Assembly (NCBI GenBank): GCA_002796305.1
Contig: PCWZ01000078.1
Span: 1 to 32,511 of the forward strand
Reading direction: 5' to 3'
Origin: Deltaproteobacteria bacterium CG11_big_fil_rev_8_21_14_0_20_49_13
Lineage (GTDB): Bacteria > UBA10199 > GCA-002796325 > 1-14-0-20-49-13
DNA: 32,511 nucleotides
A model generated the notes under the pieces. That model searched no databases. It saw nothing but the letters and a program-made list of their open reading frames with translations, and had not been told where the DNA came from. Numbering within the stretch: the first letter of the stretch is position 1; each line of letters starts with the position of its first letter. A program made the translations under genes and the position numbers. This document shows positions 12,803 to 25,805 of the stretch, in pieces.

Positions 12803-12840
12803 TTGACAGGATTGCTTTTATGCACTAGTTCGTGAGTGCA
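12803..12840 (+). promoter_or_regulatory. Promoter with TrpR-box-like operator, copy 1
   Basis: TTGACA at 12803-12808, a 17-bp spacer and TAGTTC at 12826-12831 form a promoter. The palindrome TGCACTAGTTCGTGAGTGCA (12821-12840) covers the -10, the predicted start site and the first base of the trpR-like ATG. Arms are TGCACT and AGTGCA around eight bases, the same spacing as in E. coli TrpR operators. A bound repressor would block initiation, implying autoregulation. Confidence 0.75.
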
Positions 12841-13118
12841 TGAAAGATGCATGGAAGAAAGAGTTGGCAAGGATGGTGGCTTCGGCAAGAGGAGCTAATG
12901 AGGCAAATGTTTTGTTAAAAACCTTATTAACACCGGCTGAACACGGGGAATTGGCAAAACGGTGGCAGATAGTTTGTGGGCTTATCGGGGGTGTTCCGCA
13001 AAGGGTGATTCGAGATAAGCTTTCGGCATCAATTGCCACGATTACGCGTGGCTCAAGAGAGTTGAAATATGGAAACGGTATTTTTCAAAAGTTCTATAAA
13101 CGATTGCAGGGGCAATAA
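12840..13118 (+). CDS. TrpR-family repressor, copy 1
   Basis: This 92-residue protein matches the Trp repressor superfamily from about residue 28: LLTPAEHGELAKRWQIV, then QRVIRDKLSASIATITRGS as the helix-turn-helix. Aligned with E. coli TrpR, the tryptophan-contacting Thr44, Arg54 and Arg84 are kept (Thr31, Arg41, Arg70); Ser88 is Glu74. An aromatic amino acid or similar ligand is possible but untested, and YerC/YecD-like relatives have unclear ligands. The ATG lies at the operator edge, so the transcript is probably leaderless. A paralogue (21903-22190) is more than half identical by eye and has the same neighbour. CAGGGGC/GCCCCTG at the 3' end (about 13109-13134) could be a weak attenuator. 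Confidence 0.85.
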   Translation: MKDAWKKELARMVASARGANEANVLLKTLLTPAEHGELAKRWQIVCGLIGGVPQRVIRDKLSASIATITRGSRELKYGNGIFQKFYKRLQGQ

Positions 13119-13155
13119 AACCCGCGGCCCCTGTATGTTTACACACTCATTTTTC

Positions 13156-13180
13156 CACATCTGGTGGGCGTAACGCCCAA
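13156..13180 (+). promoter_or_regulatory. Conserved leader hairpin, copy 1
   Basis: CACATCTGGTGGGCG then TAACGCCCAA lies 64 bases before the Cys-protein ATG. It folds as TGGGCG-TAA-CGCCCA. Copy 2 (21851-21875) is nearly identical over this block at almost the same distance while the surrounding leader has diverged, which suggests a cis-acting RNA or a protein-binding site. Confidence 0.6.
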
Positions 13181-13244
13181 TCATATTCTCGTTGTCATTC
13201 TATTTTTCATTTAACCGTAACAACAATTTTAAGGAGGACTTTTT

Positions 13245-13616
13245 ATGTCTACAAAATGTGTCACAAGAGAAGTTGCTACATATTATGCCAGACCACCATG
13301 TTTCCCAAGCGGTTATGAGAGCGATGGTAAGTGCTATGGATCAACAACCATTACGGAATGCGGCATCAGCGTACCCATTTCTGGAAATGACGAGTATAGA
13401 AAAGTTGCGGCGCTTACAGGTTTCCCGGATGTGCTCAGTGAAGAAGATGCCTTTAGGTTTCTTTGCGCAAAAAGTGTCGCTGAGCGAGAGATTTCTTCAA
13501 GAACAGGCATATACGATTTTATCGTAGACTTGATGTTCGGACGCGAATATACGGAAGAAACTATCCGCGGCAACGAACTGTTCAAAGCAGGGTATCATTT
13601 CGATCATTTCTACTGA
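13245..13616 (+). CDS. Cys-containing protein of TrpR cassette, copy 1 (ends at premature TGA)
   Basis: The 123-residue product has Cys5, Cys19, Cys30, Cys39 and Cys74. The first four form a spaced N-terminal cluster with a PPCF motif, possibly metal-binding or redox (inference). It shares TREV, EYRKVAAL-like, VLSEEDxFRFxCAK, ASRTGIY-like and FGREY stretches with the 182-residue copy at 21240-21788. Family not recognised; no signal peptide. Start ATG 13245 has a strong AAGGAGG about 8 bases upstream. It ends at TGA 13614-13616, where copy 2 has Ala, and the paralogous sequence continues in the same frame after it, so the gene is split by a nonsense codon or TGA is read through. Confidence 0.75.
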   Translation: MSTKCVTREVATYYARPPCFPSGYESDGKCYGSTTITECGISVPISGNDEYRKVAALTGFPDVLSEEDAFRFLCAKSVAEREISSRTGIYDFIVDLMFGREYTEETIRGNELFKAGYHFDHFY

Positions 13617-19855: not shown

Positions 19856-20026
19856 CTACTTCTTCTCTTCCTTGTCGTTCTCTGCCACGAACTTTTTGAT
19901 CTCGTCCAGCGTTTCAAGGATCATCTTGGCCTTGGTCAGTCCGAAAGAGAACGGGAACTTGTCCGTTTCGTTCCTTTTTATCACAAGCATCGGATTGCCT
20001 TTGTATTCGGATCTTTCGATTATCAT
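19856..20026 (-). CDS. Small conserved-looking protein, 56 aa
   Basis: ATG 20026 is preceded by AAGGAGACTACC, a good Shine-Dalgarno. The protein starts MIIERSEYKGNPMLVIKRNE, continues with PFSFGLTKAKMILETLDEIK and ends in a charged tail (NDKEEKK). The pattern of a beta-rich start and a helical end is common in small uncharacterised deltaproteobacterial proteins. No function can be given. It converges on the exported protein with five bases between the stops. Confidence 0.7.
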   Translation of the reverse strand: MIIERSEYKGNPMLVIKRNETDKFPFSFGLTKAKMILETLDEIKKFVAENDKEEKK

Positions 20027-20089
20027 GGTAGTCTCCTTAAGTTGTGCGCCTGCATAAATTATTTTTCCGTGTTTGTCACCAAAATACCC

Positions 20090-20128
20090 CCCTAAAAGCC
20101 CCTTTTATAAAATAATTGCCTTTTAGGG
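20090..20128. repeat. Inverted repeat upstream of the small gene
   Basis: Perfect 9-bp arms CCCTAAAAG (20090-20098) and CTTTTAGGG (20120-20128) surround an AT-rich 21-base centre. It may be an operator or a weak terminator. The rest of 20129-20255 holds nothing I can support. Confidence 0.4.
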
Positions 20129-20255
20129 CACCTTTTGCTAGGTGCTCCCATTGCCCACTGCGAGCGAGAACATGGTTTTGCCAGTTCGAGCGAGAGGGGT
20201 TTGGGAAAAACGGCAAGCCTTGGAGCCGGTCGTTCCCCCCCCCATTTAAATAAAC

Positions 20256-20522
20256 GCTCCCTTCGTCTAGCGGTCTAGGCTGGCACGAACGGCCTAGTGA
20301 GTGCCAGGCGAGGCGGGCGCAGCCAGTGGCTGAAAAGTGAGGGAGCGGCCCGGCGACCGAACGTCAGCCCGCCGAGTCGGCTCCATAGAACGGCGACGTT
20401 CAGGAGCTGTTCGGAGGAGGAGCCCTCTCAAGGCTAAGATCGCGGGTTCTGACCGAGACAGGGGACCCAACCTTTGGTTGGGTGGGCGAGGGCGCGACAG
20501 CGCGGAAAGGAGAACCCCGCAG
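20256..20522 (+). pseudogene. tRNA-Glu copy split into three exact pieces
   Basis: Three segments identical to the intact tRNA-Glu downstream occur in order: 20256-20279 (acceptor and D-arm, 24 nt), 20421-20449 (anticodon arm to T-loop, 29 nt) and 20512-20522 (T-arm 3' side, 11 nt). Between them are GC-rich inserts of 141 and 62 bp; the first begins with a CTGGCAC...GTGCCAG hairpin. Four bases (ACAT) and the 3' acceptor strand are missing. It cannot mature as a normal bacterial tRNA. Confidence 0.8.
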
Positions 20523-20578
20523 CCTGGAGTTTTTTTGACAACTTTGTGATTAGTATATCGACCCGTAAAACGGTCAAT

Positions 20579-20655
20579 GCTCCCTTCGTCTAGCGGTCTA
20601 GGACATAGCCCTCTCAAGGCTAAGATCGCGGGTTCGAACCCCGCAGGGAGCGCCA
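20579..20655 (+). tRNA. tRNA-Glu (CTC), CCA encoded
   Basis: The cloverleaf is complete. Acceptor GCTCCCT pairs with AGGGAGC; the anticodon stem TAGCC/GGCTA holds loop CTCTCAA with anticodon CTC, which reads GAG; the T-arm is GCGGG-TTCGAAC-CCCGC; and CCA is encoded at 20653-20655. A split copy lies upstream and an interrupted 3' fragment lies at 25506-25622. Confidence 0.95.
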
Positions 20656-20840
20656 AGTGACAACTGGTAGAACCCATGCTGGGATGTAAGTCCGGCGTGG
20701 GTTCGCCATGGTCGCTAGCACAGAAGCCGCGCCAAGCGCGGCTTTTCTGTTTGTGCACTTCTCGAAATCTCGTCTGGTCGAAACTGAAACCCCAAGGCAC
20801 CTGTAGAACCTGATGGGTTCGACCGATTTTCAAAACCCTT
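20656..20840. repeat. Diverged ~190-bp repeat downstream of tRNA-Glu, copy 1
   Basis: This stretch (TGACAACTGGTAGAACCC near its start, CTGATGGGTTCGACC near its end) aligns with 25623-25805, which follows another tRNA-Glu 3' end. It contains a hairpin with arms GAACCCATGC and GCGTGGGTTC. Open frames on either strand here look like shadows of structured DNA rather than genes. Confidence 0.6.
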
Positions 20841-20880
20841 GGGACGGTAAGGACGGCTAGGACGGTAAAAGACTAACTTT

Positions 20881-20930
20881 CCACTGCCACACTTCACCTA
20901 AAGTCAGGTGGAGCGGTGGGGAGTTTTTTT
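20881..20930 (+). terminator. Intrinsic terminator downstream of tRNA-Glu
   Basis: CCACTGC...TTCACCT pairs with AGGTGGA-GCGGTGG around AAAGTC, leaving a small bulge, followed by GGAG and TTTTTTT. Related GTGGAGCG and CGCTCCAC segments recur just downstream. Confidence 0.65.
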
Positions 20931-21239: not shown

Positions 21240-21788
21240 TTAGCGCCCACAAAGCGGGAAACCATGTCTGTCTTTGAATAGGCAACGGCCACGAGAATCG
21301 ACCTCAAAAAGAGATGGTCTTCTTGGCTGTGTTTTTCCGTCAAGGTCTTGGGCACGTTCCACAAATTGTTTTGCCCTATTTCTAAGGGCGCGCAGATTCA
21401 GACTGTCATAATGTTTTTTTGCGAGAAAATAATCGAAGTGATATTTTACCTTCATCAGTTCGTTGTCGTGAATAACTTTCTCTATGTATTCGCGTCCAAA
21501 TATAAAGTTTACCATAGAATCGTATATGCCTGTTCTTGAAGCAATCTCTTTTTCGGCGATGCCTTTGGCGCAATAGAATCTAAAAACATCTTCTTCACTC
21601 AACACATAAGTAAACCCGGACATTGCCGCTACTTTGCGAAATTCATCGCTGGATTCATTAGAAATCACAACGCCGCATTCCACATCGGATCGATAGCCAG
21701 CACATCTGCCAGTACCGTCATCGAAAGGGAAGCATGGCGGCTTTGCGTACATCGTTGGCACTTCCCGAGTAATGCATTTTGTAGACAT
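21240..21788 (-). CDS. Cys-containing protein of TrpR cassette, copy 2 (full length)
   Basis: The 182-residue protein has Cys5, Cys19, Cys29, Cys38 and Cys73 at positions matching copy 1, plus Cys in a GRCLF and a PLCGR C-terminal motif. Conserved blocks are MSTKCITREV, YAKPPCF, EFRKVAAMSGF, VLSEEDVFRFYCAK, ASRTGIYDSM and LRALRNRAKQFVERAQ. It is soluble and not recognisable as a known family; metal binding by the N-terminal Cys cluster is a guess. A perfect AAGGAGG precedes the ATG, and a conserved leader hairpin lies 63 bases upstream. The same-strand neighbour upstream is a TrpR-family regulator, and a terminator follows. Confidence 0.85.
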   Translation of the reverse strand: MSTKCITREVPTMYAKPPCFPFDDGTGRCAGYRSDVECGVVISNESSDEFRKVAAMSGFTYVLSEEDVFRFYCAKGIAEKEIASRTGIYDSMVNFIFGREYIEKVIHDNELMKVKYHFDYFLAKKHYDSLNLRALRNRAKQFVERAQDLDGKTQPRRPSLFEVDSRGRCLFKDRHGFPLCGR

Positions 21789-21850
21789 AAAAATACCTCC
21801 TTAAAATTTTGATTAAAATAAACGAACAAACAGATTTTAATTGGATGCAT

Positions 21851-21875
21851 TTGGGCTTACGCCCACCAGATGTGA
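21851..21875 (-). promoter_or_regulatory. Conserved leader hairpin, copy 2
   Basis: The minus strand reads CACATCTGGTGGGCG then TAAGCCCAAA, folding as TGGGC-GTAA-GCCCA, a stem with a GNRA-like loop. It is nearly identical to 13156-13180 and sits 63 bases before the Cys-protein start. Confidence 0.6.
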
Positions 21876-21902
21876 AGATCGGTAATGATGGATAGAGAAA
21901 TG

Positions 21903-22190
21903 CTAGCGGGTTTGGCGAACCTCAAGCCTTTTGTAGAATTTTTGAAATGTACCGTTTCCATACTGTATTTCTCTCGATCCTCGCGTCACTGTGGCAATCG
22001 AGGCTCCCAGCTCTTTTTTGATCTCCCTTTGCGGAACTCCTTCAATAAGCCTCTTTACAATCTGCCAGCGCTTCGCCAGTTCCTCGTACTCCTTTGGTGT
22101 CAGAAGCACTGATAATAACTCCTTGATTTCCACCTTGGTTTTTGCGGAAGCAAAAAGTTCAATTAATTCTTTTCTCCAACCGTCCTCCAT
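21903..22190 (-). CDS. TrpR-family repressor, copy 2
   Basis: This 95-residue protein has LLTPKEYEELAKRWQIV and the helix-turn-helix QREIKKELGASIATVTRGS. Like copy 1 it keeps Thr31, Arg41 and Arg70 (E. coli TrpR Thr44, Arg54, Arg84) and has Glu74 at the Ser88 position. ATG 22190 aligns with the start of copy 1 and lies one base from a TrpR-box-like palindrome. The predicted start site is at or next to the ATG, so the message should be leaderless. The next gene on the strand is the Cys-containing protein. The ligand is unknown; autoregulation is the best-supported prediction. Confidence 0.87.
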   Translation of the reverse strand: MEDGWRKELIELFASAKTKVEIKELLSVLLTPKEYEELAKRWQIVKRLIEGVPQREIKKELGASIATVTRGSREIQYGNGTFQKFYKRLEVRQTR

Positions 22191-25383: not shown

Positions 25384-25459
25384 ATTATGTAACCCTGATA
25401 TCAATATCGACATAAATCGGTTCTACTATGGGGTTCGCGTAGTGACTGACTGGGAGCGC

Positions 25460-25497
25460 AAAAATGGCGGTGACCCTTTAGGGTTGCCGCCATTTTT
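25460..25497. terminator. Strong bidirectional terminator
   Basis: AAAAATGGCGG-T-GACCC and GGGTT-G-CCGCCATTTTT form a long near-perfect stem around TTTA, with A and T tracts at the base so it can work in both directions. GGGAGCGC, as in the tRNA-Glu 3' end, lies immediately upstream. Confidence 0.8.
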
Positions 25498-25505
25498 TTG
25501 CTTTT

Positions 25506-25622
25506 GGGTTCGAACGTCCGCCAAAGGCGGACCTGTTCGACGACCGAGGCCGGGTACCCGCCAAGCGGGTGGCCGAGGAAGTACCCGAAGACGAGAGCCG
25601 GAGGGTGCCCCCGCAGGGAGCG
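25506..25622 (+). pseudogene. tRNA-Glu 3' fragment interrupted in the T-arm
   Basis: GGGTTCGAAC (25506-25515) and CCCCGCAGGGAGCG (25609-25622) match the T-arm and acceptor end of the intact tRNA-Glu, separated by a 93-bp insert rich in hairpins (GTCCGCC-AAA-GGCGGAC; GGGTACC...GTACCC). No 5' half is present. It is followed by the same diverged flank as the intact tRNA. Confidence 0.7.
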
Positions 25623-25805
25623 CTGAATGACAACTCGTCAAACCCTCGTCCTGATGTATGAGGGACGGTGGTTCGCGAGAGTCATTATTCTACTGGTCGC
25701 GCAGGACGCAAGCTCTCTGTTTCGCCACTTCTGAAAATCACGTCAGAACTAACTCGGAACCCTGATTGACCGTCTGAACCCTAAGGGTTCGACCCCTCGA
25801 CGCGT
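25623..25805. repeat. Diverged ~190-bp repeat downstream of tRNA-Glu 3' end, copy 2
   Basis: It aligns with 20656-20840 through ATGACAACTCGTC, CACTTCTGAAAATCACGTC, CGGAACCCTGA and GAACCCTAAGGGTTCGACC. The repeat brackets the island at 20.66-25.6 kb. 25806-25975 holds no gene I can support; it includes a run of Gs near 25917. Confidence 0.6.

Follow-up and report, generated by a model that had tools for sequence, protein, structure and literature searches.

The sequence at 20256-20522 of the window (the whole stretch of 32,511 nt that was analysed) is very probably a non-functional, twice-interrupted duplicate of the neighbouring tRNA-Glu(CTC) gene, in which insert 2 is a degenerate copy of a dispersed, probably mobile double-hairpin repeat and insert 1 is a separate sequence. 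This reading explains the odd split tRNA without invoking tRNA splicing in bacteria.

The split tRNA-Glu copy

Three fragments of tRNA-Glu(CTC), of 24, 29 and 11 nt, are collinear with and identical to the intact gene 323 bp downstream and together cover 64 of its 77 nt. The features are as follows.

20256-20279, + strand: tRNA-Glu piece 1 (acceptor 5' strand to D-stem 3' strand), an exact match to 20579-20602
20280-20420, + strand: insert 1, 141 nt, GC-rich, in place of the tRNA bases ACAT by comparison with the intact copy
20421-20449, + strand: tRNA-Glu piece 2 (anticodon arm to T-loop C56), an exact match to 20607-20635
20450-20511, + strand: insert 2, 62 nt, a degenerate double-hairpin element at T-loop 56^57, from the R2 model and BLAST matches to copies behind other tRNAs
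20512-20522, + strand: tRNA-Glu piece 3 (T-loop G57 to position 67), an exact match to 20636-20646
20579-20655, + strand: intact tRNA-Glu, anticodon CTC (ARAGORN; Rfam RF00005, 63.4 bits)

The earlier note had described three exact, ordered pieces separated by inserts of 141 and 62 nt, and alignment to the intact tRNA confirmed this anatomy. In a whole-genome search, the 24-nt and 29-nt matches were far above chance (E values of 1e-5 and 5e-8, respectively). The GC contents of insert 1 and insert 2 are 68% and 66%, compared with 47% for the window. The split copy lacks the four tRNA bases ACAT that link the D-stem 3' strand to the anticodon stem in the intact gene, and insert 1 occupies this place. 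The junction of insert 2, between C56 and G57 of the T-loop, is clean, and comparison with the intact copy revealed no target-site duplication there. Piece 3 is followed by AG-CCTGGAG-TTTTTTT in place of the acceptor 3' strand AGGGAGC, which is missing.

The multi-intron bacterial tRNA that the earlier note had implied did not hold up. The collinearity of the three exact pieces would suit a tRNA gene with two spliced introns, but the absence of tRNA bases and of the acceptor 3' strand contradicts an intact product, and an intact gene of the same anticodon adjoins, making this explanation extremely unlikely. ARAGORN called the intact copy but did not call a tRNA in the joined pieces, with or without ACAT. 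No Rfam intron family matched the window at the gathering threshold, the models of self-splicing group I and group II introns included, and none was among the matches with E values up to 10 in 20000-20900. The tRNA-splicing endonuclease (PF01974) had no match in the 96%-complete host genome and was found in all four archaeal controls. Together, the missing parts, the unrecognised joined pieces and the lack of PF01974 and of an Rfam intron led to the rejection of an intron-bearing tRNA. The host genome has 41 tRNA genes above the Rfam threshold, including the intact Glu(CTC) gene. The split copy resembles the disrupted (intron-containing, split or permuted) tRNA genes of archaea and eukaryotes in that a tRNA sequence is broken by inserts, but it differs from them in having no splicing endonuclease, no complete tRNA and an intact gene alongside.

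The double-hairpin repeat family

Insert 2 gave short BLAST matches to loci located just behind other tRNA genes in the genomes of relatives. A first covariance model, R1, was built from five copies, including the one in the window, and has a consensus structure with compensatory changes; the second model, R2, was built from 43 copies and contains no window sequence. A MAFFT alignment of the cores alone misaligned hairpin 2 and was kept out of model building. The element has the layout YGA, hairpin 1, AAG, hairpin 2, with a core of ~65-70 nt. R2 matched the window twice, at 20412-20520 (insert 2; 43.9 bits, E = 3e-14) and at 25502-25616 (a fuller copy; 82.8 bits, E = 6e-29). In insert 2, hairpin 1 is kept, and hairpin 2 has lost ~11 nt, the left strand of its outer helix. 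Insert 2 is therefore a degenerate copy of the double-hairpin element in which not both hairpins are intact.

Within the class, the family was detected in 19 of 46 genomes with R1 and in 20 of 46 with R2 at E values of 1e-6 or below, the best matches reaching 1e-39. The number of copies per genome ranges from 0 to at least 78, the latter in G004. Among 70 distinct copies, 95.6% of the cells were paired, compared with 73.3% after shuffling, and 343 cells had double changes, compared with 89 (a level reached by none of 500 shuffles) and with 42-70 when the partners were slid, although these counts lean somewhat to the structure because the alignment was fitted to R1. The fold z-scores of three full tRNA-linked copies were -4.9, -4.2 and -3.3, and that of a fourth was -1.6. 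The family had no match in Rfam, and no description of the element was found in the open-access literature. The double-hairpin repeat family is real and hairpin-forming, and it is apparently undescribed.

A pattern scan of GTDB genomes located the core in Deltaproteobacteria-labelled MAGs of the group, in Omnitrophota, in Elusimicrobia and in one Chlamydiae MAG, and all eight of the genomes tested among these finds have 4 to 20 copies each. Several little-studied phyla are thus shown to carry a structured repeat family. Outside the class, many copies are located at the centres of palindromes (CCCCTTA^core^TAAGGGG), as in the Chlamydiae MAG, or in frame within genes. The reading frames of IspD (ispD), LeuRS (leuS) and DinB continue through the core, with Pfam domains on either side. 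IspD and LeuRS are essential proteins, and, judged from the reading frames, the cores within them would give them extra peptides, in the manner of Rickettsia palindromic elements. In G014, copies at L044, L058 and L076 are located right behind flagellar sigma-28 promoter-like sequences (..GCCGATAA), in stems with CTATAG ends and without a tRNA.

Association with tRNA genes and interrupted copies

By hand count of the fetched copies outside G004, 28 of 62 (~45%) have a tRNA on the same strand no more than 60 nt away, a percentage that is approximate for the class because the copies were partly picked by score. All but two of the 28 are downstream of the tRNA (26 copies), mostly by 40-50 nt and past a terminator-like hairpin. 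Many or most of these downstream copies have 10-26 nt after the core that exactly repeat the 3' part of that same tRNA, from T-loop position 57/58 to the tRNA end. The tRNAs linked to cores are those for Glu, Ser, Gln, Ala, Pro, His, Arg, Leu and Asp. In the host genome, five of the seven copies have one of the 41 tRNA genes at a distance of 60 nt or less, for which the rough chance is below 1% per copy, and a sixth, at 25502, bears a tRNA-Glu 3' end. In G004, most copies are located away from tRNAs.

The tRNA-linked form has the order terminator, partial reverse complement of the T-arm, GGTTC, core, and GAATCC leading to the acceptor end. Before the core, partial inverted complementarity to the T-arm and acceptor strand reached significance in about half of 20 tRNA-linked units at most, and the same units only partly bore out the idea that the whole 3' half of the tRNA is generally present as an inverted copy. 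A tandem array of three units is located behind tRNA-Ala(CGC) in G040 (L072, 1135-1758); each unit consists of a terminator, a T-arm-like hairpin, a core and a tRNA 3' end, the core of the middle unit being longer and different. An intact tRNA between short inverted repeats was observed in the host genome (L066) and in G002 (L031, 2840-2950), with the repeat pairs TTATCGCCTTAG/CTAAGGCGATAA and AACCGGCGAT/ATCGCCGGTT.

The earlier note had proposed a comparison with other tRNA loci of the genome, and this revealed a like anatomy at tRNA-Arg (L067), where tRNA positions 1-56, a core and GAATCC lie directly upstream of the intact tRNA-Arg. Two tRNA-Glu copies of G004 (L079, L080), each upstream of the intact gene, have the core in the D-loop. 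A tRNA-Gln copy (L235) and a tRNA-Glu-like copy (L234) of Omnitrophota have the core inside and the intact gene immediately downstream. Interrupted tRNA copies of this kind thus adjoin an intact tRNA of the same kind. The clean core junctions in tRNA copies are at the T-loop centre (56^57), in the D-loop or in the anticodon-arm region, and the intact neighbour serves as an empty site for comparison. The concentration in the T-loop, the duplicated tRNA ends and the built-in empty site make the insertion site and mechanism directly testable.

The earlier note had made its claim depend on the pattern in relatives, and this was found in part: the split copy is absent from the syntenic locus of G001, and the joint of insert 1 is present in G002, a genome of another genus. 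There, insert 1 and its flanking tRNA pieces are 95% identical over 181 nt (L031, 2644-2783), at a tRNA-Glu locus that is non-syntenic and has no other homology around. The pfkA gene is only ~69-72% identical between the two genomes. The G002 copy of insert 1 was the only one found in the class. Insert 1 is unrelated to the double-hairpin family, and its differences between the window and G002 are not visibly compensatory; from these comparisons, both recent movement and constraint are possible.

The host genome is a draft in 92 contigs, which leaves room for an assembly chimera. Where insert 1 is concerned, misassembly alone is an unlikely cause because G002, a separate genome of another genus, has the same joint of tRNA piece, insert 1 and tRNA piece. 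The anatomy of insert 2 is repeated at another tRNA of the host genome and in other phyla, and a chimera is highly improbable as an explanation of the whole.

At the syntenic tRNA-Glu(CTC) of G001, a core unit is located directly behind the tRNA. In the window, the matching unit sits at 25502, past ~5 kb of inserted DNA, and the following features were recognised there.

25452-25460, + strand: tRNA-Glu acceptor 3'-end remnant GGGAGCGCA, at the end of the ~5 kb region, with the adjoining 90 nt shared with G004
25502-25616, + strand: fuller element copy with a tRNA-type left part (R2, 82.8 bits)
25609-25623, + strand: tRNA-Glu(CTC) 3'-end tail, tRNA positions 61-75, from the tail match

The ~5 kb region, from 20656 to about 25460, is absent from the syntenic G001 locus, and a sequence 91% identical to its final 90 nt is found in G004 next to the tRNA-Glu(CTC) of that genome. 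Its genes encode a Trp-repressor-like protein, an AAA_14/DUF4143 ATPase, an HVO_A0114-like protein and others without a Pfam match. The region is probably an integrative element of tRNA-Glu. A gene pair, encoding a Trp-repressor-like protein and a protein starting with MSTKC, occurs twice in the window, at 12840-13616 and 21240-22190, ~8 kb apart and in opposite orientation.

The tRNA-linked units could also be relics of the attachment sites of elements that recombine in the T-loop (of the tyrosine-integrase type), the duplicated tRNA 3' ends being attR. The tails that start exactly at T-loop 57/58 and reach the tRNA end, the tandem units behind tRNA-Ala and the ~5 kb between tRNA-Glu and the copy at 25502, with its end common to G004, are consistent with such an origin. 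However, one core is found at at least nine kinds of tRNA, each with its own tail, which a single attP would not produce; the units have no integrase, and cores are also located at sites without a tRNA. We therefore regard this origin as rather unlikely. The units share with integrative elements at tRNA genes an intact tRNA, a duplicated 3' part downstream and a breakpoint in the T-loop, but unlike those elements they are only ~150-200 nt long, gene-free and without an integrase, with the same core at many tRNA kinds.

The strong covariation, the conserved place 40-50 nt downstream of tRNAs of many kinds in different families and the high identity of insert 1 between genera relative to that of pfkA would each be expected of a functional structured RNA or an RNA-processing signal tied to tRNA genes, with the split copy as a selected tRNA-derived noncoding RNA. 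Against this, cores also occur in frame in protein genes and inside other palindromes, and the copy number per genome varies from 0 to at least 78. Insert 2 lacks half of the outer helix of hairpin 2, the differences in insert 1 are not visibly compensatory, and the syntenic G001 locus is without a split copy. The fold z-scores of the whole split region were only -1.9 and -1.5 on the two strands. A functional RNA is quite unlikely on this evidence, and a mobile repeat is the preferred reading of the double-hairpin family.

Probable mobility and comparison with known elements

The clean junctions, the dispersed and unrelated contexts, the G040 array and the variation in copy number indicate that the double-hairpin repeat is probably a mobile element, and we infer that it is non-autonomous, like the Rickettsia palindromic elements. 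The element may prefer hairpin or loop DNA as a target, as suggested by junctions at the T-loop (TTC^GAA) and at the centres of other palindromes. Insertions at tRNA sites would survive only with an intact duplicate, either pre-existing or made by the event, which would lead to the pairing of intact and split tRNA copies. More tentatively, the tRNA-linked form might arise when the tRNA 3' end is duplicated by fold-back or template switching; the partial inverted T-arm and acceptor-strand complementarity found before the core in part of the units hints at fold-back replication. It is conceivable, although doubtful, that the family is a distinct miniature mobile element that targets the T-loop centre, survives there by duplicating the remainder of the tRNA and has moved from phylum to phylum with no recognised transposase.

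The core had no match in the phage or plasmid collections and none by pattern in viral contigs, and a viral search with a protein of the window also gave no match. Across the class, neither Y1 transposases nor reverse transcriptases tracked the copy number, and no partner was found among them.

The family works like known palindromic elements, and the targeting of tRNAs together with the duplication of tRNA ends is its unusual part. Rickettsia palindromic elements are short, dispersed, hairpin-forming repeats that are tolerated in frame in protein genes, as PMC10969869 describes them. The repeats studied here share with them, by description, the in-frame copies (in IspD, LeuRS and DinB), but differ in their core of ~65-70 nt rather than about 150 bp, in their two hairpins and in their host phyla. 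They also have a strong preference for tRNAs with duplicated tRNA parts, which is unmentioned for the Rickettsia elements in what PMC10969869 says of them. The DHE/RHE of mitochondria, according to the account in PMC2800124, are two-hairpin repeats in intergenic regions and RNA genes, e.g., rnl and rns. The likeness is again one of description, and the tRNA-duplicate anatomy is found only here as far as PMC2800124 describes those elements.

REP sequences, in the description given by PMC3733652, are palindromes of 20-40 bp, most of them with a GTAG or CGTC tag at one end. The family resembles the REP/RAYT system in being palindromic and present in many copies, and Y1 transposases are common in the class, but unlike REP it has two hairpins, a core of ~65-70 nt and no GTAG/CGTC tag at the ends. 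Copies of the element are present in G016, which is 98% complete and had no Y1 match. The T-loop insertions also differ from MITEs in showing no target-site duplication when compared with the intact copy.

In G004 (C8; L215, 794-1204), a Y1-type transposase gene appears to be interrupted by two cores just after the HFH motif, and this is the only place where a Y1 gene and a core are found close together.
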